From assembly GCF_900177045.1 (NCBI RefSeq), contig NZ_LT841358.1:1859559-1923558 (forward strand): DNA of 64,000 nt. The letters run 5' to 3'. This DNA is from Candidatus Nitrosotalea okcheonensis (GTDB lineage: Archaea > Thermoproteota > Nitrososphaeria > Nitrososphaerales > Nitrosopumilaceae). Position 1 is the first letter of the stretch, and each line of letters begins with the position of its first letter. Positions 47,763 to 63,801 of the stretch are shown here, piece by piece. A program made the translations under genes and the position numbers. The notes beneath the pieces were generated by a model that saw nothing but the letters and a program-made list of their open reading frames with translations, was not told the DNA's origin and made no database searches.

Positions 47763-48177
47763 TTATCTTATGGTCTTTGCAACATCTAGAACTTTTTGGA
47801 GTTCTGCCGTAGTTGGGACTCGCTCGCTCTCGTATTTCGAATAATCATTGGAGCCGCCTACTAATTTTCTTTCTTACTTCTATATCATTGAAACTCCACC
47901 ATCTCTTCAGTGCTCTGACATATCCCTTGATGTTGGTGCCTGCACTTTTCTTGTTTTCAAAATGAGTTATGACTTGGAGCAGAAAGTTGCTAGCAGCTTT
48001 GTCATTTAATCTTGCAAACTTTTGTGTTGTTGTATCAAATGTCTTGCATATGTGTCCTATTCGTCTAAAGTATTCTGCATCTGTTATCACACTTCCTCTT
48101 TCAAGATTCTCTACCCAAAGTTTGAATTGGTTATTTTTTAGATCCTTGTAGGGTGAGTTTTTGAGCAATATCTTCAT
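47763..48177 (-). pseudogene. Decayed tyrosine recombinase (integrase)
   Basis: The first 110 codons form an integrase core-binding domain (LKNNQFKLWVENLERGS, FARLNDKAASNFLLQVITHF, YVRALKRWWSFND) and end in TGA. The next frame continues in typical fashion, YSKYESERVPTTAELQKVLD, to a TAA at 47763. The catalytic domain with the R-H-R-Y residues is absent. It marks a former integrated element; it lies about 60 bp from the right 34-bp repeat. Confidence 0.7.
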
Positions 48178-48488: not shown

Positions 48489-48884
48489 TTACATTTTATT
48501 TTTCTTTAATTGTTCTCGCATATACTCTACAATAATGTTCATATGTTCTTCAGAACCATCATTATCAAAAAATCTATCGAATCCCACTTTTTGATATTCT
48601 TTTTCAAGTCCGGGTGCATTTGCATATGCACTACACCCGATCAGAATTATTTTTTTAAATTTTCTGTGGCTACTGACTATCTCCGCTATATCGGTTGCAT
48701 ATTTCTTCCCGTTTATGTCATCATCCGAAATTACTATTTTTGGAGAATTATTCATTATTGCATCATCGAGGCCTTCTATGTTTTTAATAAAAACTATTTT
48801 GAACTCAGTTGTGGAAAAGAATGAGGTTGCACCCATTATCATTTCATCCTGATCTTCAATGTATACGACAACTATCTCATTCAT
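48489..48884 (-). CDS. Degenerate response-regulator receiver protein
   Basis: A 131-aa stand-alone receiver-like domain. The acidic pair Glu10-Asp11 and Asp54 (VISDDDING) fit the phosphorylation site, and Ser85 fits the switch residue. The conserved Lys near the end appears to be replaced (FDRFFDNDG). No output domain is present. It overlaps the upstream kinase gene by 8 bp, so it is very likely the partner of that kinase, perhaps as a phosphate sink or inhibitor. Confidence 0.68.
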   Translation of the reverse strand: MNEIVVVYIEDQDEMIMGATSFFSTTEFKIVFIKNIEGLDDAIMNNSPKIVISDDDINGKKYATDIAEIVSSHRKFKKIILIGCSAYANAPGLEKEYQKVGFDRFFDNDGSEEHMNIIVEYMREQLKKNKM

Positions 48885-51252
48885 TTCTAAGTACCTTTTC
48901 CACGGGAAGCGATATCTTAAAAGTTACCCCGGTTTTGAATTCTGATTCATCCTCGATAGTTATTTCACCGCCATAATCTTTTACTGTTTCTTTTACAATT
49001 GGTAAACCTAATCCGCTACCAGCTCTGACTGATTCCATGTTTGCGGTTCTGGTCCAAAATAATTCAAAAACAAATTTACGGTCCATCTGAGGAATCCCAA
49101 TTCCGTTGTCACTGAATTTGATGTATACGTATTTTTTATCGACTGCGGCAGAAATACGAATAGTATTTTTTTTGGCATCTAGTATTTTTTTTCTATCATC
49201 AGCCAATAGTTTTAATGATTTAATGGAATTGGATATGAGATTTAACAGGATGGATTGCAGATCCGCTTGGAACATTCTTAATTTGGGTAGATTCTTTGGT
49301 ATGTCAATTATGAAATTTATGCCCCATCTTTCAAATATTCCACGCAATGAATTTTTAATGAAAACCAACTCATTGTATAAATTAATATCCTTTTTACGTC
49401 TGAATTCTTTTTTTCGACTACTCATAGCTGAGGTAAATGAGCCAATCAATGTCATATAGTTGCGAAGATTGACAATTGAGGGTTCCATGTATTCCAAGCT
49501 TTTTAGCATAATCTCTTTGTTAATTTCTGGTTTGTTTAATTCTCTCTTCAGAGTTCCGCTGTTTGATAAAATTGAACGCAGATAATCCCTGACCTCATGT
49601 GCAACCACTCCGGTAGTAATTCCGACTGATGCTAAATTTCTATATGCGTCCTTCTCATCCATCATTGCTTCTTTTTCTAGTTTGACACGTTCTCCCTCTA
49701 CAACAAAATGTGATTGAATCTGATCCAAAGTAGAAAGAATACTTTGTTTTTCCATGATTGGAATTTTGGCATTATTGACTACTTGGTCTCTGATTTTTAT
49801 TATGAATTTTGGTATTTCTTTTTTTGTTTGCTTTGCAACAATATCTGATCTATATTTTTCAGTAAATTTGTAATATTCATGAAGAGTTTGTAGCACGAAT
49901 CTTTTCAAGTCTTCAAATGCATTATTCTCTATGATTTTTTCCCTTGTTGTTGTATCCATGATCTGTGAATTATTTTTAGCAGTAATTGATACCCATCCTA
50001 TTACACTGTCATTAGCTAGTTTTCCTGCAGTAGCTCTTGCACGAGACTCCAATCCCAGCCAATCGTTTCCAGATTCTCCATATGGTCTGACTTTAAAACC
50101 ATCACGATATATTCGAATACCGCCATATTTTTTGACATCTTCACGTATTGTTGCAACTTTTGTTTCTCCATAAAATTCAGTCCATCCGAGAGGTCTACCA
50201 GTTGGATCATAGGGAAATCCGTAGTAAGTCAGTTTGACAGGTCCACATAATGCCATTGCAGCCTCTTTCTCTTCATTTAGAAATGGAAACTCTTCAAGTA
50301 ATTCGTATTTTACTCCTCTAACATTTGGGATGATTGATTCCTTTCTATATTCTGCACTGGTGAAACGGATCAAAGAATCCCCTGTTAATTCAGCTATGAA
50401 ATGATACGGAGCTTTTTTTAGTATCCCGCCTTTCACTTCAACTGTTACCGTCTTTCCTCCTTTTTCATATGTTGCAGTTATTTTAAATGGAAAATCAGGA
50501 TCTATTTCTTCAGGTAATACTAGTAACGACAATTCATCTAGAACTTTAGTAATTTTATTTTTTGTCCATATGTCTCTAAGATTTAGTAATTCAATTTTTA
50601 GTCCCTGTTCTGATTCATTTTTAGGTGAATATTCTATTGGAATCTTGATCTTATCGAAGGATTTTTTTGTTTTTTCAAATTCATCCCAATTATTATCGAC
50701 TATTGTGGTGTACTTTGAACCTCTTGTTTTTGAATGTAAAATTGTTCTATGTGATAACCTTTCTACCGCAAATCTGCCTACACCTTTTTCTCCAATTACT
50801 CGGCGATTTTTTTCCGTTATCAGTTCGTCTTCTGTTTTGCTAACCCCGATCTTCATCCACTTGTCGCGAATCTGTTCAAGTGTCATACCTTTACCAGTAT
50901 CTTCAATTATGATTGTTGTTTGATCTTTATATTTTTCTACAAGATTGTATTGTACTACGTACCATGGATCCTTTTTTACTAAATCATCCAATTCTTTTAC
51001 CGGAGCATCGGGTTTTTCATTTTTTAGTTTTGTAAATAAAATCTTGTATCTACGGTCAAGAGCATTAACAGCGTTACTGAGAAGTTCAACATGATTGAAT
51101 TTTATGGTAACCGCTTTCGCATCTGCATCATAAGAATTTTTTACTAATTCAAATAATGCTTGAATTTCGGTTGAAACTGATTCTCTTCCCAATAGTTTGG
51201 GCAGTTTACTGGCAACTGTATACTTTAAAAATTTAGGTTGTTTCAACATCAT
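48877..51252 (-). CDS. Histidine kinase with N-terminal MORC/Hsp90-type ATPase domain
   Basis: A 791-aa protein with two GHKL ATPase domains. The N-terminal one has ELVKNSYDAD (35-44), EDTGKGM (117-123) and IGEKGVGRFA (153-162), the MORC/MutL/Hsp90 pattern. A middle domain (about 190-440) follows, then a helical linker, an H-box HEVRDYLRS with His552, and a C-terminal kinase ATPase with NLISNS (671-676), DNGIGI (715-720) and GSGLGL (745-750). No membrane segment is present, so it is cytosolic. Its gene overlaps a receiver-like gene. It probably senses an intracellular signal through the first ATPase domain. Confidence 0.78.
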   Translation of the reverse strand: MMLKQPKFLKYTVASKLPKLLGRESVSTEIQALFELVKNSYDADAKAVTIKFNHVELLSNAVNALDRRYKILFTKLKNEKPDAPVKELDDLVKKDPWYVVQYNLVEKYKDQTTIIIEDTGKGMTLEQIRDKWMKIGVSKTEDELITEKNRRVIGEKGVGRFAVERLSHRTILHSKTRGSKYTTIVDNNWDEFEKTKKSFDKIKIPIEYSPKNESEQGLKIELLNLRDIWTKNKITKVLDELSLLVLPEEIDPDFPFKITATYEKGGKTVTVEVKGGILKKAPYHFIAELTGDSLIRFTSAEYRKESIIPNVRGVKYELLEEFPFLNEEKEAAMALCGPVKLTYYGFPYDPTGRPLGWTEFYGETKVATIREDVKKYGGIRIYRDGFKVRPYGESGNDWLGLESRARATAGKLANDSVIGWVSITAKNNSQIMDTTTREKIIENNAFEDLKRFVLQTLHEYYKFTEKYRSDIVAKQTKKEIPKFIIKIRDQVVNNAKIPIMEKQSILSTLDQIQSHFVVEGERVKLEKEAMMDEKDAYRNLASVGITTGVVAHEVRDYLRSILSNSGTLKRELNKPEINKEIMLKSLEYMEPSIVNLRNYMTLIGSFTSAMSSRKKEFRRKKDINLYNELVFIKNSLRGIFERWGINFIIDIPKNLPKLRMFQADLQSILLNLISNSIKSLKLLADDRKKILDAKKNTIRISAAVDKKYVYIKFSDNGIGIPQMDRKFVFELFWTRTANMESVRAGSGLGLPIVKETVKDYGGEITIEDESEFKTGVTFKISLPVEKVLRNE

Positions 51253-51477
51253 AACGATAAATTGATTAGTTTTTTAACCCTATCATCCATGTGCGTATTA
51301 AAACCGCTCTCATAAAATGGATTGAATTTCTTCCCGTTTTGTCATTAAGTGTTCTCTTCCTCAAAATCTGTAAATCCCCATATGTCACTGATGGCTACTG
51401 TAAGTGTAGGTGAATTGACCTATTTTATGACATATTTTTGGTCCTGGACTTAATTAGAAAAATATAGAAATCCATCA

Positions 51478-52485
51478 ATGAACTCTAATCAAATCATTTG
51501 TGAAGATTCTACTGTGGCATTAAGAAAACTTCATAGTGCTTCAATAGATCTTATTTATCTAGATCCTCCATTTTTCTCAAAAAGAAGTCATCAGAAGACA
51601 ACCGTCCAAGGAGAAATTCGTTCATTTGATGATAGTTGGGAAGGAGGTATTGGACAGTATCTTGATTTTATGCAAAAGATAATTTCTGAATGTCACAGGG
51701 TTCTAAAGAAAAATGGAACAATCTATGTCCATTGTGATTGGCACATCTCGCACTATCTCAAGGTGAATCTTGATTCTATCTTTGGTTATTCAAATTTTAG
51801 AAACGAAATAATCTGGAAAAGACATAATTCTCATAATGACACAAAACAGGGTGCCAGAATTTTTGGAAGAATACATGATTCGATATTATACTATTCCAAA
51901 GGGGATAATCCTACTTGGAATCCCATTTATCAGAAATACTCTGAAGAATATGTCAGAAAGGCATACAGACACTTGGAAGAAGAAACTGGAAGAAATTATG
52001 CACATGGAGATCTTGGTGGTCCGGGAGGGGCAGCAAAGGGTGATCCCTACTATACATTCTTGGGAATAACACGACATTGGAGATTTTCTAAGAAAAGAAT
52101 GGATGAATTATACCGAATGGGAAAAATTGTACAGACCAAACCGGGAAATATGCCGCTACTAAAAAGATATCTGGATGACATGAAAGGAATTCAACTACAG
52201 GATATCTGGGATGATATAAAACCAGTCAGATCCTCCAAGGCTGAATCAACAATGTACCCCACACAAAAACCCATAAAGCTTCTTGAGAGGCTGATACACA
52301 TCTCATCAAATGAAAAGGATGTAGTACTTGATCCCTTCTGTGGCAGTGGCACTACTCTAGAGGCTGCGGACAACTTGGGAAGAAAATGGATTGGGATAGA
52401 TGTGAGCAAGACTGCCTGTGAGATTACAAAAAAGCGAATGGAAAAAAGAAAAGAAACAGAAAAAATCATGACAGTAAAAACATGA
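51478..52485 (+). CDS. DNA methyltransferase, beta class (N6-A or N4-C)
   Basis: A 335-aa site-specific enzyme. The catalytic motif DPPF (29-32) comes before the SAM-binding motif DPFCGSGT (285-292), the order that defines the beta class. The middle holds target recognition. It is divergent from the kinase gene; no restriction partner is directly adjacent, so it may be orphan or work with the nuclease genes to its right. GC content is like its left neighbours. Confidence 0.88.
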   Translation: MNSNQIICEDSTVALRKLHSASIDLIYLDPPFFSKRSHQKTTVQGEIRSFDDSWEGGIGQYLDFMQKIISECHRVLKKNGTIYVHCDWHISHYLKVNLDSIFGYSNFRNEIIWKRHNSHNDTKQGARIFGRIHDSILYYSKGDNPTWNPIYQKYSEEYVRKAYRHLEEETGRNYAHGDLGGPGGAAKGDPYYTFLGITRHWRFSKKRMDELYRMGKIVQTKPGNMPLLKRYLDDMKGIQLQDIWDDIKPVRSSKAESTMYPTQKPIKLLERLIHISSNEKDVVLDPFCGSGTTLEAADNLGRKWIGIDVSKTACEITKKRMEKRKETEKIMTVKT

Positions 52486-52599: not shown

Positions 52600-53004
52600 C
52601 TAACCCTTGTCCAAATGTCTGATGATTCGTCTCTTGTATTTCTCCGGGTTTTTCATTATGTCATGCTCCCAAAACCTTAGAACCGACCATCCATCACGTC
52701 TGAGTTTTCTTGAAACCCTTCTATCTCTGGCCATGTTTCCTTCTATCTTGTCTTGCCAGAATTTCTTTGCAGGCTTCTTTTGGTCGTGATATCTGCAGCC
52801 ATGCCAAAAATCTCCGTCACAAAATATTGCAATTTTTTCTGCTGGGATTATGAAATCAGGACTGCCAAACATTTTTGGATACATTTCAAACTTTACGCCC
52901 ATGTCTGAGAGGGCCTTCTTCATTGCAAGATCTATCTTGGTATTGGATCCGCGTATTCTTGACATCACCCAGGAACGCTTCTCTGGAGTAAACACGTCTG
53001 TCAT
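52600..53004 (-). CDS. vsr: Very-short-patch repair endonuclease
   Basis: A 134-aa Vsr. Catalytic Asp50 (GSPDFII), Asp65 and His68 in FCDGDFWHGC and the C-terminal SVLRFWEHDI match the family. Vsr nicks T:G mismatches that arise by deamination of 5-methylcytosine, so it should protect sites of the C5-methyltransferase encoded about 1.3 kb away. It is divergent from the putative endonuclease gene with a 73-bp gap. Confidence 0.93.
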   Translation of the reverse strand: MTDVFTPEKRSWVMSRIRGSNTKIDLAMKKALSDMGVKFEMYPKMFGSPDFIIPAEKIAIFCDGDFWHGCRYHDQKKPAKKFWQDKIEGNMARDRRVSRKLRRDGWSVLRFWEHDIMKNPEKYKRRIIRHLDKG

Positions 53005-53077
53005 TTCTCATCAACTGCAAGCCCGTGAATGTGGTAATTGGCGGCAACTTTTTCTATGCTATCCACAGTAGTCCTAC

Positions 53078-54193
53078 ATGGCAGGGCAGGATAATTACAT
53101 TAGTTTTTTCAAGAAATGGTTTCCTGTCAACAAGGCCAAGGGACTTCTGGCACAACTGTCTTTTGAAAACGAGTTTGAGAACGGATTTTTAAAAAAATAT
53201 TCCGGAAATTTTTATCCAGGATGCTGGGTGATTAGCCCGAAATCACACGAATCACACAGGGCACGATATGCAGTTTTTATCCACAACAGAATTGAGGATG
53301 CATCAGGTGCGGGAAAGAACGTCGATTCGTTACTGGGATCAAAGAAGGAAATCTTCAACAAGATTGCACGATTTCTTGACAGCTCATCCTTCGGTGTAAT
53401 CTATGCAGTTCCACATACTGCTGACGGACATCTTGACTTCTCCAAGCTTGACGGTGATGGATTTGATTCTCTAAAATGGAATCTTTTCATTCTGAATGGA
53501 ACATCATTTGTTCTACTGGATGCAGGAAAATTCTTTTCAAAATGGAGGGGAGGAATGAGGCCGCGCAGGCCGCAGGAATCGCAGAAGTGGGACAGCAATG
53601 AACAGATCATCTCCAAGCTTTCAAAAATTCCTACGGAAAAACTTGAGGCATTTGTATTGAAGGAAATATTTTACACCGGGTTTCTGAAATCCGTCATAAA
53701 GGTTTCAACGGATGATCCTTATGATGTGGACAGTTTTATCATATCAACGCAAGACAATTCTGTATTTCCAGTAGAACTGAAGGAGAAGTCCCCCGTGTTT
53801 GAGAAATACAAAAAGGGGGATCAGATAAGGGAACACTATTTTGGAATAGACTCGGGCAGGATTTCATGTCTTGAAAGGATCTGTTCGCCTAATGATGCCA
53901 ATGCATTCTATGTAGTAAGGGAAGTCGAGGATGGCAAGGATGGGAAGGAAAGGAATCTTGTAAAATGGAAATGCATGACACTCTCGGGAGTAATCATGGC
54001 GGCCTCATGGAATGCAATAGGCGGAGGATCTGGAATGTTTGGAAGCACGACCAGCACCGTCAAACTCCCATATGGAGAGTTTGCAGATCTTACAGACCAG
54101 ACATTTTCTGAAGAAAACCTGAAAAAGGTCTCATCAAGAACAAGGGCCATGAAGATGATATCCGATGATTACCGATCATCCCTTCAAAAATGA
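53078..54193 (+). CDS. Putative PD-(D/E)XK restriction endonuclease
   Basis: A 371-aa protein lacking any close match that I recognise. Asp218 followed by Glu233-x-Lys235 (YDVDSF ... PVELKEK) fits the PD-(D/E)XK nuclease core. The N-terminal half (about 1-160) may read DNA sequence. Its place between vsr and the C5-methyltransferase, in one G+C-richer block, makes it the likely restriction partner of that methyltransferase. Base composition differs from neighbouring housekeeping genes, suggesting transfer. Confidence 0.68.
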   Translation: MAGQDNYISFFKKWFPVNKAKGLLAQLSFENEFENGFLKKYSGNFYPGCWVISPKSHESHRARYAVFIHNRIEDASGAGKNVDSLLGSKKEIFNKIARFLDSSSFGVIYAVPHTADGHLDFSKLDGDGFDSLKWNLFILNGTSFVLLDAGKFFSKWRGGMRPRRPQESQKWDSNEQIISKLSKIPTEKLEAFVLKEIFYTGFLKSVIKVSTDDPYDVDSFIISTQDNSVFPVELKEKSPVFEKYKKGDQIREHYFGIDSGRISCLERICSPNDANAFYVVREVEDGKDGKERNLVKWKCMTLSGVIMAASWNAIGGGSGMFGSTTSTVKLPYGEFADLTDQTFSEENLKKVSSRTRAMKMISDDYRSSLQK

Positions 54194-54297
54194 CCGGCCT
54201 GATCTTGATTCCAACTAAAAATTTTAAATAAATCAAACTAATGGTGACATGGTGTAGCTTGAAACACTTGATAACATCCCGGAGGTTAAGATAGATT

Positions 54298-55281
54298 GTG
54301 AAAAAGGACGCGTTTACATTCATTGATCTTTTTGCAGGAATAGGGGGAATGAGGCTTGCATTTGAAAGAGCCGGCGGAAGGTGCGTCTTTTCCTCGGAAT
54401 GGAACAAGTTCTCCCAGCAGACCTATGAAGCAAACTTCGGGGAAGTGCCGGAGGGAGATATTACAAACATAAACGAAAATGATATTCCTGATCATGACAT
54501 ACTTGCAGGAGGGTTTCCATGCCAGCCGTTTTCAATTGCCGGAGTATCCAAGAAGCAGAGCCTCAACAGGCCGCATGGATTTGAGGATGAAACACAGGGC
54601 ACATTGTTTTTTGATATTGCAAGAATTCTAAAAGCAAAGAGGCCCAAGGCGTTTCTTCTTGAAAATGTAAAGAACCTCCAGAGTCATGACAAGGGAAAGA
54701 CCCTGAAGATAATACTGAAGACGCTGCGGGACCATCTTGGTTATGATGTTCATTACAAAATAATGGATGCAAAAGTTGTTGTTCCACAGCACAGGGAAAG
54801 AATATTTATTGTAGGTTTTTCAGAGCCGACAGAATTTTCATTTCCAGAAATTCCTGATAGAAAACTCATTATGCATGATATTCTGGAAAGCAAGGTGGAC
54901 AAGAAATACACTCTGACCAAGGGAGTGTGGAACGCACTTCAGAGGCATGCTGCAAACAGCAAGGCAAAGGGAAACGGATTCGGATATGGCATGACCAATC
55001 TTGATGGTATTTCCAGAACACTGAGTGCAAGATACTACAAGGATGGGTCGGAAGTTCTGATTCCACAGAAAAATAATCCCGTTCCAAGAAGGCTTACTCC
55101 CCGTGAATGTGCAAGACTAATGGGTTTTCCGGAATCATTCAAGATTGTTGTCTCCGACTCGCAGGCCTATAGACAGTTTGGAAATGCGCTGGTGGTTCCG
55201 CTTGTTGAAGAGATTGCAAAGTCTGTTGTTGAATGTGTCCAGAGTAAAAAAAGAAGAATCACAATAGCGGATTATACTTGA
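54298..55281 (+). CDS. C5-cytosine DNA methyltransferase
   Basis: A 327-aa Dcm-type enzyme. Motifs in order: FAGIGG (12-17), catalytic Cys75 in [14 protein letters not shown] (about 116-120), QHRERIF and the C-terminal FGNALVVP. It adds a methyl to C5 of cytosine at a short site. GTG start; a GGAGG Shine-Dalgarno is found about 15 bases upstream. Paired with Vsr and the putative endonuclease. The next gene starts one base after its stop. Confidence 0.92.
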
Positions 55282-55567: not shown

Positions 55568-55610
55568 ATAAAATTTTTGTTTATTAACATCACTGTCTTT
55601 GATTTCTGTG

Positions 55611-55964
55611 ATGGCTATTCCTGATCTTGAAACTATCATGCGTCCGCTTTTGGAATTTCTAGCTGACGGTAAACCACATGTCATGGACGAGGCGGAAAAC
55701 CATCTTGCAAAAATCTTTGGACTTTCCGAGGAGGAAAAAAATAAAATGAAACCAAGCGGAAGTGAGACCCTGTTTCATAACCGAATCCACTGGGCCAAGT
55801 TCTACCTGAAAAAGGCAGGACTTGTAGAAAGTCCTCCAAGAAAACCATTCAAAATAACTCCCAGGGGAAGCACGGTTCTCAAGGAAGGCAAAAACAAAAT
55901 AAAAATAACCTATCTGAAAAAGTTTCAGGAATTCTCCGACTTTGTAGACAGAAAAAATGACTAG
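55611..55964 (+). CDS. Stand-alone Mrr N-terminal winged-helix protein
   Basis: A 117-aa protein with the Mrr_N pattern: LLEFLADGKPHVMDEAENHL, FGLSEEEKNKMKPSGSETLF, NRIHWAKFYLKKAGLVESP and ITPRGSTVLK. In Mrr restriction enzymes this domain binds DNA before the nuclease domain; here the nuclease is absent. It may regulate the cluster or be a truncated Mrr. An ATG four codons upstream (55599, read from GTG) is an alternative start. Its end overlaps the next gene by 8 bp. Confidence 0.78.
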   Translation: MAIPDLETIMRPLLEFLADGKPHVMDEAENHLAKIFGLSEEEKNKMKPSGSETLFHNRIHWAKFYLKKAGLVESPPRKPFKITPRGSTVLKEGKNKIKITYLKKFQEFSDFVDRKND

Positions 55965-60445: not shown

Positions 60446-61915
60446 ATGATGGTTCTTACTGTAGTAGAGGATGCAAAGCAAATCCTTGCTCTTCAGCAAA
60501 AATTCTCTAAGATATTAGAATCAAAATCTGATGGACATTTTCCTATGGAAGTTGGTAATACCAAATATCCTGATGATTATTCTCATACTGTATATGACTT
60601 TTCAAAACATGGATTCTGGTATGCCCATCATGAAACTCCAGGTGCGCCGTATCGTAGATATGTGAATGTATTTGGGATAACAGAAAAAAATGAACGGGAA
60701 TTTGATACAGAATTTTTTTATAAAATAATCTGTGAAATTAATTTACCACCATCAGGAAATAACTGGTCCGTAGCAAGTGCTTTTGTGACGGATGAGGCTG
60801 GAAAAACCTACCTTGTACATTCTGGAAAAATAAGTGGTGGCAAAAATGCAATAGGGCAATCTGACTTTGAAAAACACTTTTCTGGCCATGGGAAATGGGG
60901 ATTTGTAAAAGGAACTGCAGATCCAAGAAAAAGAGTTATCATCATATCTGAATTGGATGATAAGCAACTAGTTTCAAACCTTGCCGATTTTGTAAAACAA
61001 GTACACCAAATCAAAACATTGACAGAGGGAGGAAATCTTCCTAACAACCCCTCAATTCAAACAGAAAATAGAACTGTTACAAATAAGACACAATCTAGCT
61101 CTCGTCTTTCTGGTGATGAAAAAGAGTTTTCTGTTGCAAAAACTGGAATGAAATTTGAAGAGTTTTGGGCTCTTATACAAAAATCACCATCACTGACTCT
61201 TGAGACCTTGAAACGAAAAAAACCATTCAAGATGTCTTATGATTCATCAAATGATTCAGTAGTTGTAATTCCTGAGCATAAAAAAAATCCAAGGAAAATC
61301 TATAGAAATGAATTTGAGAAAGTCTGGAGTGTAGCAGAAAAAATACTTTTCAATACACTTCAGAAGACAATACATAAAAAAAATCTCAATTCTGCTTACC
61401 ATGTTGCCATAATCGATCATTTTGTAAGAGATGAGATAGAAAAGTTATCTAGAACTTTTGAATACATTACTGGCAAAAAATACGAATCTGATGATACACA
61501 AACTGATGAGATGGAACAGTCCTATCTTGAATCAATTGAACTAAACAAAACCAAGGATGAAATTAGAAAAGAACTGAGAGATGTGAGCCCACAAACACCT
61601 CAGATGATTGAAGTACGAGGCAGGAAATGTAAAAGAGACAACAAGACCATTGTACAACTAAAAATATTACGTGATTTTAAATGCCAAATATGTGGGCATA
61701 CCTTTAGACAGAAAAATGGCAAATTCTATGCTGAGGGGGCTCATATTGATAAAAAAAGTAAATTCGGGCCAGAAACTTCAAGCAACATTATGATCCTATG
61801 TCCCAACCACCACAGAGAATTTGATCTTGGTAATACAGAAATAATCAAACGCACTATGGATGAAATTATTTTCAAACTAAACGGAATACCGCATCGAATT
61901 AAACTTAGTTTATAA
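60446..61915 (+). CDS. HNH endonuclease with unknown N-terminal domain
   Basis: A 489-aa nuclease. The C-terminal HNH domain (about 410-470) has CQICGHTFRQ, EGAHIDKKSK and ILCPNHHREFD, with zinc-binding CxxC and CxxH. The N-terminal about 190 residues (GFWYAHHETPGAPYRRYVNV and WGFVKGTADPRKRV) look like an alpha/beta binding domain, followed by a linker and a helical middle. Such fusions are often modification-dependent restriction enzymes, but I do not recognise the N-terminal family. It may cut incoming DNA. Confidence 0.76.
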   Translation: MMVLTVVEDAKQILALQQKFSKILESKSDGHFPMEVGNTKYPDDYSHTVYDFSKHGFWYAHHETPGAPYRRYVNVFGITEKNEREFDTEFFYKIICEINLPPSGNNWSVASAFVTDEAGKTYLVHSGKISGGKNAIGQSDFEKHFSGHGKWGFVKGTADPRKRVIIISELDDKQLVSNLADFVKQVHQIKTLTEGGNLPNNPSIQTENRTVTNKTQSSSRLSGDEKEFSVAKTGMKFEEFWALIQKSPSLTLETLKRKKPFKMSYDSSNDSVVVIPEHKKNPRKIYRNEFEKVWSVAEKILFNTLQKTIHKKNLNSAYHVAIIDHFVRDEIEKLSRTFEYITGKKYESDDTQTDEMEQSYLESIELNKTKDEIRKELRDVSPQTPQMIEVRGRKCKRDNKTIVQLKILRDFKCQICGHTFRQKNGKFYAEGAHIDKKSKFGPETSSNIMILCPNHHREFDLGNTEIIKRTMDEIIFKLNGIPHRIKLSL

Positions 61916-62895: not shown

Positions 62896-63801
62896 CTATT
62901 TGTATTCATCAAGCGGCTGTGCCCACGTCTTGACTTTATTCCATTTTGGTACCATCTCTTCACAATCCTCATCAAATTCTAACATTAATGATTCATGCCT
63001 CAAGTTTGGTGGTTCTTTCAGTCTCTCTTTTGCAAGTTTGACATACTTTTTATGAATATCAATTCCAATGAATTTCCGTCCATATAGGTTAGCCAATTTT
63101 GTAGTTTGACCACTACCATTGAATGGATCTAATACTACATCACCACGATAGCTATAAAGATGAATTAGTCTAAAGGGAATCTCTTCTGGATATGGACATG
63201 GATGATCCAAATATCCCGGTGGTACTGGAGCAATATGCCAGACAGAATTTGCTATTTCTTTCCACAAAATTGGGTTTAGATTTTTAAATGCGTAACCAAT
63301 CTCTCTTCTTAACTTATTTTTCCCTTTTCTCATGACAAGAATTTTTTCATGCATTATGTTGGCTCGGAAATATGATGGATAGGGATGTTGTACAAAACTT
63401 CCAGCTCTATTTGCGCCTCCTGTTACCTTATGCCATACAATTTCTTCATGTAAATTCCAACCCCGCCTGACTAACTCAGCTGTTAATAAAGCTGGTAGTG
63501 GCTCTAATGTTCCCTTGTTAATTTCATTTCCTATTACTATACAACAATAACCGCCATCCACAGTAACTCTCTTTACTGCGTCAAAAATTTCACCCATATC
63601 TTGGATGTATTTCTCTAAGGAGAGAGATAACTTTCCTCGATAATTCTTTCCAGGTTCATTACTACCATGTTTTACATGCATACCATAGTCTATTGCATTT
63701 CTATATGGTGGAGATGTGATAGTAAGATTAACAGAATTCTCTTCCATCTTGGATAAAGTCTCAAGGTTGTCTCCTTGAATTATTTGATTAATGAATTTCA
63801 T
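62896..63801 (-). CDS. DNA methyltransferase, beta class with TSPPY motif
   Basis: A 301-aa enzyme. The catalytic motif TSPPY (29-33) precedes the SAM motif DPFNGSG (225-231), the beta-class order. SPPY-type motifs are common in N4-cytosine methyltransferases. Upstream on the same strand another gene ends 51 bp away at the window edge, possibly its restriction partner. Confidence 0.87.
   Translation of the reverse strand: MKFINQIIQGDNLETLSKMEENSVNLTITSPPYRNAIDYGMHVKHGSNEPGKNYRGKLSLSLEKYIQDMGEIFDAVKRVTVDGGYCCIVIGNEINKGTLEPLPALLTAELVRRGWNLHEEIVWHKVTGGANRAGSFVQHPYPSYFRANIMHEKILVMRKGKNKLRREIGYAFKNLNPILWKEIANSVWHIAPVPPGYLDHPCPYPEEIPFRLIHLYSYRGDVVLDPFNGSGQTTKLANLYGRKFIGIDIHKKYVKLAKERLKEPPNLRHESLMLEFDEDCEEMVPKWNKVKTWAQPLDEYK

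Follow-up and report, generated by a model that had tools for sequence, protein, structure and literature searches.

The window, a 64,000-nucleotide stretch of the genome of Candidatus Nitrosotalea okcheonensis, encodes on its reverse strand a 791-aa double-GHKL histidine kinase (48877-51252), the gene for which overlaps by 8 nt that of a 131-aa REC-only receiver (48489-48884, reverse strand). Divergent from the kinase gene, across a 225-bp intergenic region (51253-51477) presumed to hold both promoters, lies the gene for a 335-aa N6/N4 DNA methylase (51478-52485, forward strand; Pfam N6_N4_Mtase, E 4.4e-51). This methylase, missed in an earlier note on this DNA, is the third part of the unit, as its conserved linkage (described below) indicates.

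Pfam recognised two GHKL domains in the kinase (HATPase_c_3, E 7.8e-19, aa 107-197; HATPase_c, E 9.7e-25, aa 663-785), and an AlphaFold2 model (mean pLDDT 84) gave the order of parts as GHKL domain, transducer, long coiled-coil helices, DHp hairpin with His552, and CA domain. The N-terminal, MORC/Hsp90-type ATPase domain (about aa 1-200; 50653-51252, this and all other kinase features being on the reverse strand) carries the motifs E35xxxN39xxD42, D118xGxG and G154xKGxG and, as judged from the model and from homologues, contains a helical insertion of ~50 residues (aa 55-111; 50920-51090). There follow an S5-like transducer region located by structure matches (about aa 204-440; 49933-50643; motif YRDGFxVxPYGxxxxDWL), a coiled-coil linker (about aa 444-535; 49648-49923; modelled as long helices spanning 444-493 and 499-572), a DHp helical hairpin (about aa 536-610; 49423-49647; His552 codon 49597-49599) and a kinase catalytic (CA) ATPase domain (about aa 615-785; 48898-49410). 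The protein is predicted to be soluble, no transmembrane segment being expected from a maximum 19-residue Kyte-Doolittle mean of 0.98.

Conservation bears out this anatomy. In an alignment of 100 kinase homologues, E35, N39, D42, D118, G120, G122, G154, G157 and G159 were conserved in 98-100% of sequences and H552 was present in 96/100; the CA boxes (N671/N675, D715xGxG and G745xGxG) and transducer residues R383, D397 and R437 were also conserved, and the nucleotide-binding residues of both ATPase domains were retained in nearly all homologues. Retention of the ATPase residues and of H552 at these levels puts the double-GHKL assignment far beyond chance. Structure comparison of the model recovered histidine kinases (HK853, E 9e-14), to the DHp and CA domains of which a profile of the kinase family also aligns, together with the ATPase modules of MORC2 (9cdj), SMCHD1 (6mw7) and Hsp90 (E about 1e-11 to 6e-11, over >500 columns). 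The resemblance to MORC is at fold level (11-13% identity), and the N-terminal module combines GHKL motifs with an S5-type transducer, as MORC and paraMORC ATPases do; it appears, by motifs and modelled fold, to be MORC-like, and membership of MORC proper is not claimed. The earlier note's reading of this protein, as two GHKL domains in one cytosolic chain ending in a complete histidine kinase with His552, accordingly holds, the N-terminal ATPase residues on which it depended being intact in the alignment, as are the N and G boxes of the HK853-like end.

Three other readings of the kinase were considered and rejected. A hidden nuclease has no room, the domains described covering essentially all 791 aa. 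Matches to the BbrUII/HgiDII family of type II restriction endonucleases (PADLOC/NCBIfam) span the shared GHKL aa 109-233 alone and fall far below cut-off. The helical insertion, found in the window kinase and its two closest relatives, is no unique hallmark of the trio, as one bacterial group (L048, L065 and L069) also has one.

Taken alone, the window receiver matches Pfam Response_reg weakly (E 0.079). Its model (pLDDT 92), however, has a complete (beta-alpha)5 fold that matches the PDB receivers Spo0F, NarL and KdpE (E about 4e-6, TM about 0.75), and a profile built from nine archaeal members matches the REC domain of PhoP at 5e-11. Four of the five active-site positions are kept (E10/D11, D54, with codon 48723-48725, and S85), the sole change being replacement of the beta5 Lys by Asn108. 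When the window protein was aligned with 85 receivers encoded beside homologous kinases, the phospho-acceptor Asp54 was invariant (86/86), a count conditional on the selection of these receivers by inspection of how each downstream gene begins; position 85 was Ser or Thr in 84/86, and the acidic pair was retained in nearly all. Position 108 was Lys in 57/86, the window protein and its two closest relatives having Asn there; substitution of this Lys need not abolish phosphorylation (PMC12632262). The receiver is thus intact apart from a single substitution in its active site. The gene had been described as a degenerate receiver with altered switch residues: degeneracy does not fit an invariant phospho-acceptor and a complete modelled fold, and of the alterations only that of the beta5 Lys stands, the fold and the other four positions matching canonical REC domains.

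Relatives of the kinase are abundant, with 539 confirmed among the candidates from one scan of species genomes, and others found at 66 loci in viral contigs and on 238 plasmids. In a sample of 100 kinases from 96 loci, 86 had a REC-like gene directly downstream and one (L014) had its receiver on the upstream gene, so that at least 87/100 adjoin a REC gene; most of the remainder lie at contig ends, are truncated, or come from high-GC loci that fail simple ORF calling. These counts rest on alignment and inspection, a regular expression for REC neighbours having proved too loose (it took DrmA of L180). Kinase and receiver are therefore co-conserved, as the note's proposal of a functional pair needed them to be. 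The exceptional gene (L014:6878-7858), which overlaps the kinase gene, encodes a 326-aa protein with the receiver at its C-terminus (REC, E 2.7e-06) and a winged-helix-like N-terminal part.

Within the archaeal family the kinase is patchily distributed (14/250 genomes, 8/22 genera), as for mobile defence genes. Two archaeal genomes, G303 and G304, encode double-GHKL proteins (L178:8196-10391 and L180:8374-10569) in DISARM-like operons with a helicase, that of L180 also encoding an MZB-domain protein and a C5 methylase; both copies have Arg at the phospho-His position and no adjoining receiver. Loss of the phospho-His where the receiver is absent, seen in these two related sequences, is suggestive. 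In the 3.2-Mb genome G303, four tandem double-GHKL genes occupy ~16 kb (L179:3064-18883). At L181:9827-12552 a HerA-type ATPase and a possible NurA-like protein are encoded directly upstream of the double-GHKL gene; in L049, L086 and L092, too, the kinase gene is preceded by that of a HerA-type ATPase.

The closest archaeal relatives of the window kinase, in G053 (50% identity) and G245 (47% identity), belong to the same methylase-kinase-receiver trio: in all three genomes the kinase gene is divergent from that of an N6/N4 methylase and is followed by a 131-135-aa REC-only gene. Loci L010 and L011 show this divergent kinase/methylase layout, and their 993-aa neighbours were tried as a common partner and rejected on sequence starts and gene context, the one fitting a type I restriction-modification (R-M) cluster (L010) and the other being an unrelated signal-peptide protein (L011). 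Searched against 250 family genomes, the methylase had 20 matches, spread over 16 genomes. A double-GHKL kinase, in one case a decayed remnant (G318), lies within ~1.5 kb of each of the six homologues at ≥52% identity (52-100%, the window's own copy among them), as against 0/14 of the weaker matches, a lower bound given that some of these are gene fragments or near contig ends. The kinases beside close methylases come from three different tree branches and stand in several orientations, indicating that methylase and kinase have recombined while staying linked. Across the wider set, a methylase of one of four families was found within six genes in 73/89 loci (within three genes in 72), although many contigs are short.

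A dedicated N6/N4 methylase linked to the kinase is what a type II R-M system would have. Its cognate endonuclease should then be linked too, yet no nuclease gene is common to the three trio loci, and the absence of any nuclease or other effector conserved with the trio in these loci makes restriction no more than a possible output. The bacterial relatives are richer in this respect: their kinase-receiver core is constant and their extra genes are clade-specific, each clade of the tree keeping a characteristic set of methylase, receiver class and third gene. The extra gene encodes an HNH protein in L028 (E 7e-7) and an MBL-fold protein elsewhere. At L019:9773-10402 and in 19 other bacterial loci, the gene after the kinase and receiver specifies a protein in which a His-Gly ... 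Cys dyad is invariant and which weakly matches Peptidase_C25 (6e-4 in 2/19) and caspases, a candidate caspase/gingipain-like effector. At L035:10252-10959 and in 21 other loci, a His-rich protein of ~248 aa, always second after the kinase, carries near-invariant WHxDRH ... HPxYHFQFGG ... PRxxHPPMD motifs, and the single member tested had no Pfam match. These clade-specific genes near the receiver (HNH nuclease, caspase/gingipain-like, MBL-fold and His-rich) are candidate outputs. No such gene adjoins the archaeal trio, the output of which would therefore have to lie with the methylase, with a restriction gene nearby or with a product of some more distant gene.

The surroundings of the pair are as restriction-rich as the earlier note reported, with methylases, Vsr, Mrr-like and helicase-nuclease genes in the window. 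A Vsr endonuclease, a 371-aa protein (53078-54193) and a C5 methylase best matching DrmMII (together 52600-55281) probably form a separate R-M system. Beyond these, an Mrr N-terminal winged-helix domain (55599-55964; E 2.6e-30) lies in an ORF that encodes no catalytic domain. The segment 57093-63801 encodes a UvrD helicase with a PD-(D/E)XK nuclease, an HNH protein (60446-61915) and another N6/N4 methylase (62896-63801). On the other side, shortly past the receiver gene, a 110-aa ORF (47845-48177) that very weakly resembles the N-terminus of a recombinase is possibly a mobile-element remnant. When relatives were searched with the flanks for the boundaries of the island, the matches were partial or multi-copy and revealed no clean empty site; there are no tRNA genes in the 64-kb window, and no close DNA matches of the island were found on plasmids. 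A PEFG-CTERM signal, together with the genome search, points to an ammonia-oxidising member of the Nitrososphaerota.

The pair had been thought to correspond to no described system, but a bacterial version has been reported (Bellieny-Rabelo et al. 2021, PMC8011034). In that restricted search of Bacteria, a HATPase_c_3 + HEF_HK + HATPase_c protein paired with a Response_reg_2 protein was found to adjoin C5 and N6/N4 methylases, Vsr and R-M genes, was described as a restriction-linked two-component system, and was proposed to be of paraMORC origin. Like it, the window has HATPase_c_3, a His-bearing helical domain and HATPase_c in one soluble protein, an adjacent receiver-like gene with the conserved Asp, and DNA methylases and Vsr nearby. 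The described system, however, is bacterial and associated mainly with C5 methylases, whereas the window has a 131-aa REC-only protein and a divergent N6/N4 methylase. Neither of the published models, HEF_HK (PF19191) and Response_reg_2 (PF19192), has a match in the window proteins at E 0.1, and at 0.01 they match only 2/51 kinases and 1/86 receivers of the wider set; by those models the window pair is thus a relative that works like the described system rather than a member of it.

Other known systems share parts of this arrangement. MORC-like ATPases were placed in R-M operons by Iyer et al. 2008 (PMC2292703), and their paraMORC1-5 have the same N-terminal GHKL + S5 module and R-M neighbourhood but no histidine-kinase end, the window protein having a kinase at its C-terminus in place of a nuclease or TIR domain. 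With HK853-RR468, the canonical cytosolic two-component pair, the window shares the DHp + CA kinase end and the (beta-alpha)5 receiver; it differs in having a second GHKL ATPase as its likely sensor, a receiver lacking both output domain and beta5 Lys, and genes tied to a methylase. Detocs is a two-component phosphorelay that operates in immunity and has a second receiver fused to an effector. A similar phosphorelay logic is proposed here for immunity, although the window trio has a MORC module and a methylase partner, and only one REC-only gene, with no REC-effector gene among the neighbours examined. As for DISARM, double-GHKL homologues lie inside the DISARM-like operons of two archaeal relatives (above), and the window C5 methylase best matches DrmMII; the DISARM-associated copies, however, lack the phospho-His and receiver of the window system, and PADLOC and Pfam scans of the ten window genes between 45361 and 59771 found no DrmA or DrmB. 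DefensePredictor (2026, PMC13092281) includes a HATPase + REC system among its predicted, unvalidated systems, one that may or may not be of the window family. No experimental test of a defence role for the kinase-receiver module was found in the literature searched.

As a whole, the data are best explained by a three-gene, methylation-coupled two-component module, a reading we hold to be about evenly balanced between right and wrong. We infer its ligand, direction of signalling, phosphotransfer, output and role in defence as follows. The N6/N4 methylase would mark host DNA, and the MORC-like GHKL/transducer module of the kinase would act as an ATP-gated dimer clamp reading a signal from DNA or from DNA with bound protein, the simplest being unmodified invading DNA or lost host methylation. 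The coiled coil would relay closure of the clamp to the kinase end (DHp/CA), prompting autophosphorylation on His552; the phosphate would pass to Asp54 of the REC-only protein, and the phospho-receiver would act on an effector or regulator that it contacts. MORC2 and SMCHD1, to which the N-terminal fold matches, are known DNA-binding GHKL ATPases. The module is further favoured by the pairing of kinase and receiver (at least 87/100), the conserved Asp (86/86), Ser/Thr (84/86) and His (96/100), the methylase linkage (6/6 versus 0/14, and 73/89 loci in the wider set), the lack of the His in receiver-less, DISARM-like copies, the clade-specific gene combinations and the patchy distribution; against it stand the lack of an effector conserved with the trio in the three closest loci, the missing beta5 Lys and a MORC match confined to fold level (11-13% identity). 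A defence role for the pair is plausible.

The main rival, which we consider unlikely, is that the pair controls the methylase and restriction genes around it, at the level of transcription or of activity, and triggers no immune effector, as a phosphorylation-driven equivalent of an R-M controller protein. The divergent methylase with its shared 225-bp intergenic region, present in all three closest loci, would suit such a role, as would the winged-helix-like region in front of the L014 receiver, and the authors of PMC8011034 themselves suggest signalling that controls R-M systems. The window receiver, however, has no DNA-binding domain, so that a separate transcription factor would be required, and HNH or caspase-like genes in bacterial operons fit an effector better than a regulator. 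An abortive-infection alarm, with the real effector encoded elsewhere and the phospho-receiver as a decoy or brake that drains phosphate against false alarms, as DetB does in Detocs, seems improbable: a REC-only protein that lacks an effector domain and has Asn for Lys in its active site would fit, but no second REC-effector protein is adjacent in the three trio loci, and bacterial relatives usually have a single receiver and then a different gene. An ordinary housekeeping two-component system, in a restriction-rich island by chance, is disfavoured and very improbable despite its canonical kinase core and receiver fold, given the 6/6 versus 0/14 methylase linkage, the same association across bacteria (that in PMC8011034 held up with a shuffled-genome control) and the patchy distribution of the kinase within the archaeal family.

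The trio is thus an archaeal variant of a widespread bacterial signalling module beside restriction genes, and by the mechanism set out above it probably couples DNA methylation state to a defence response. The bacterial version was proposed in 2021 without a function, sensor or output; the kinase-receiver module is now seen to be much wider than its Pfam models and to reach archaea as a minimal methylase-kinase-receiver form, the window branch keeping every residue required for phosphorelay except one Lys. More tentatively, and with something short of even confidence, the MORC-type clamp may be the sensor of a phosphorelay that reads DNA methylation or foreign-DNA status, forming a general immune chassis of bacteria and archaea in which kinase and receiver are constant and the methylase and effector genes (HNH, caspase-like and others) are exchanged from clade to clade, the archaeal trio being its minimal form. 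Were MORC-like clamps indeed to report DNA status through a phosphorelay, this would provide a prokaryotic route to what MORC ATPases sense, and a testable link between DNA methylation and signalling.
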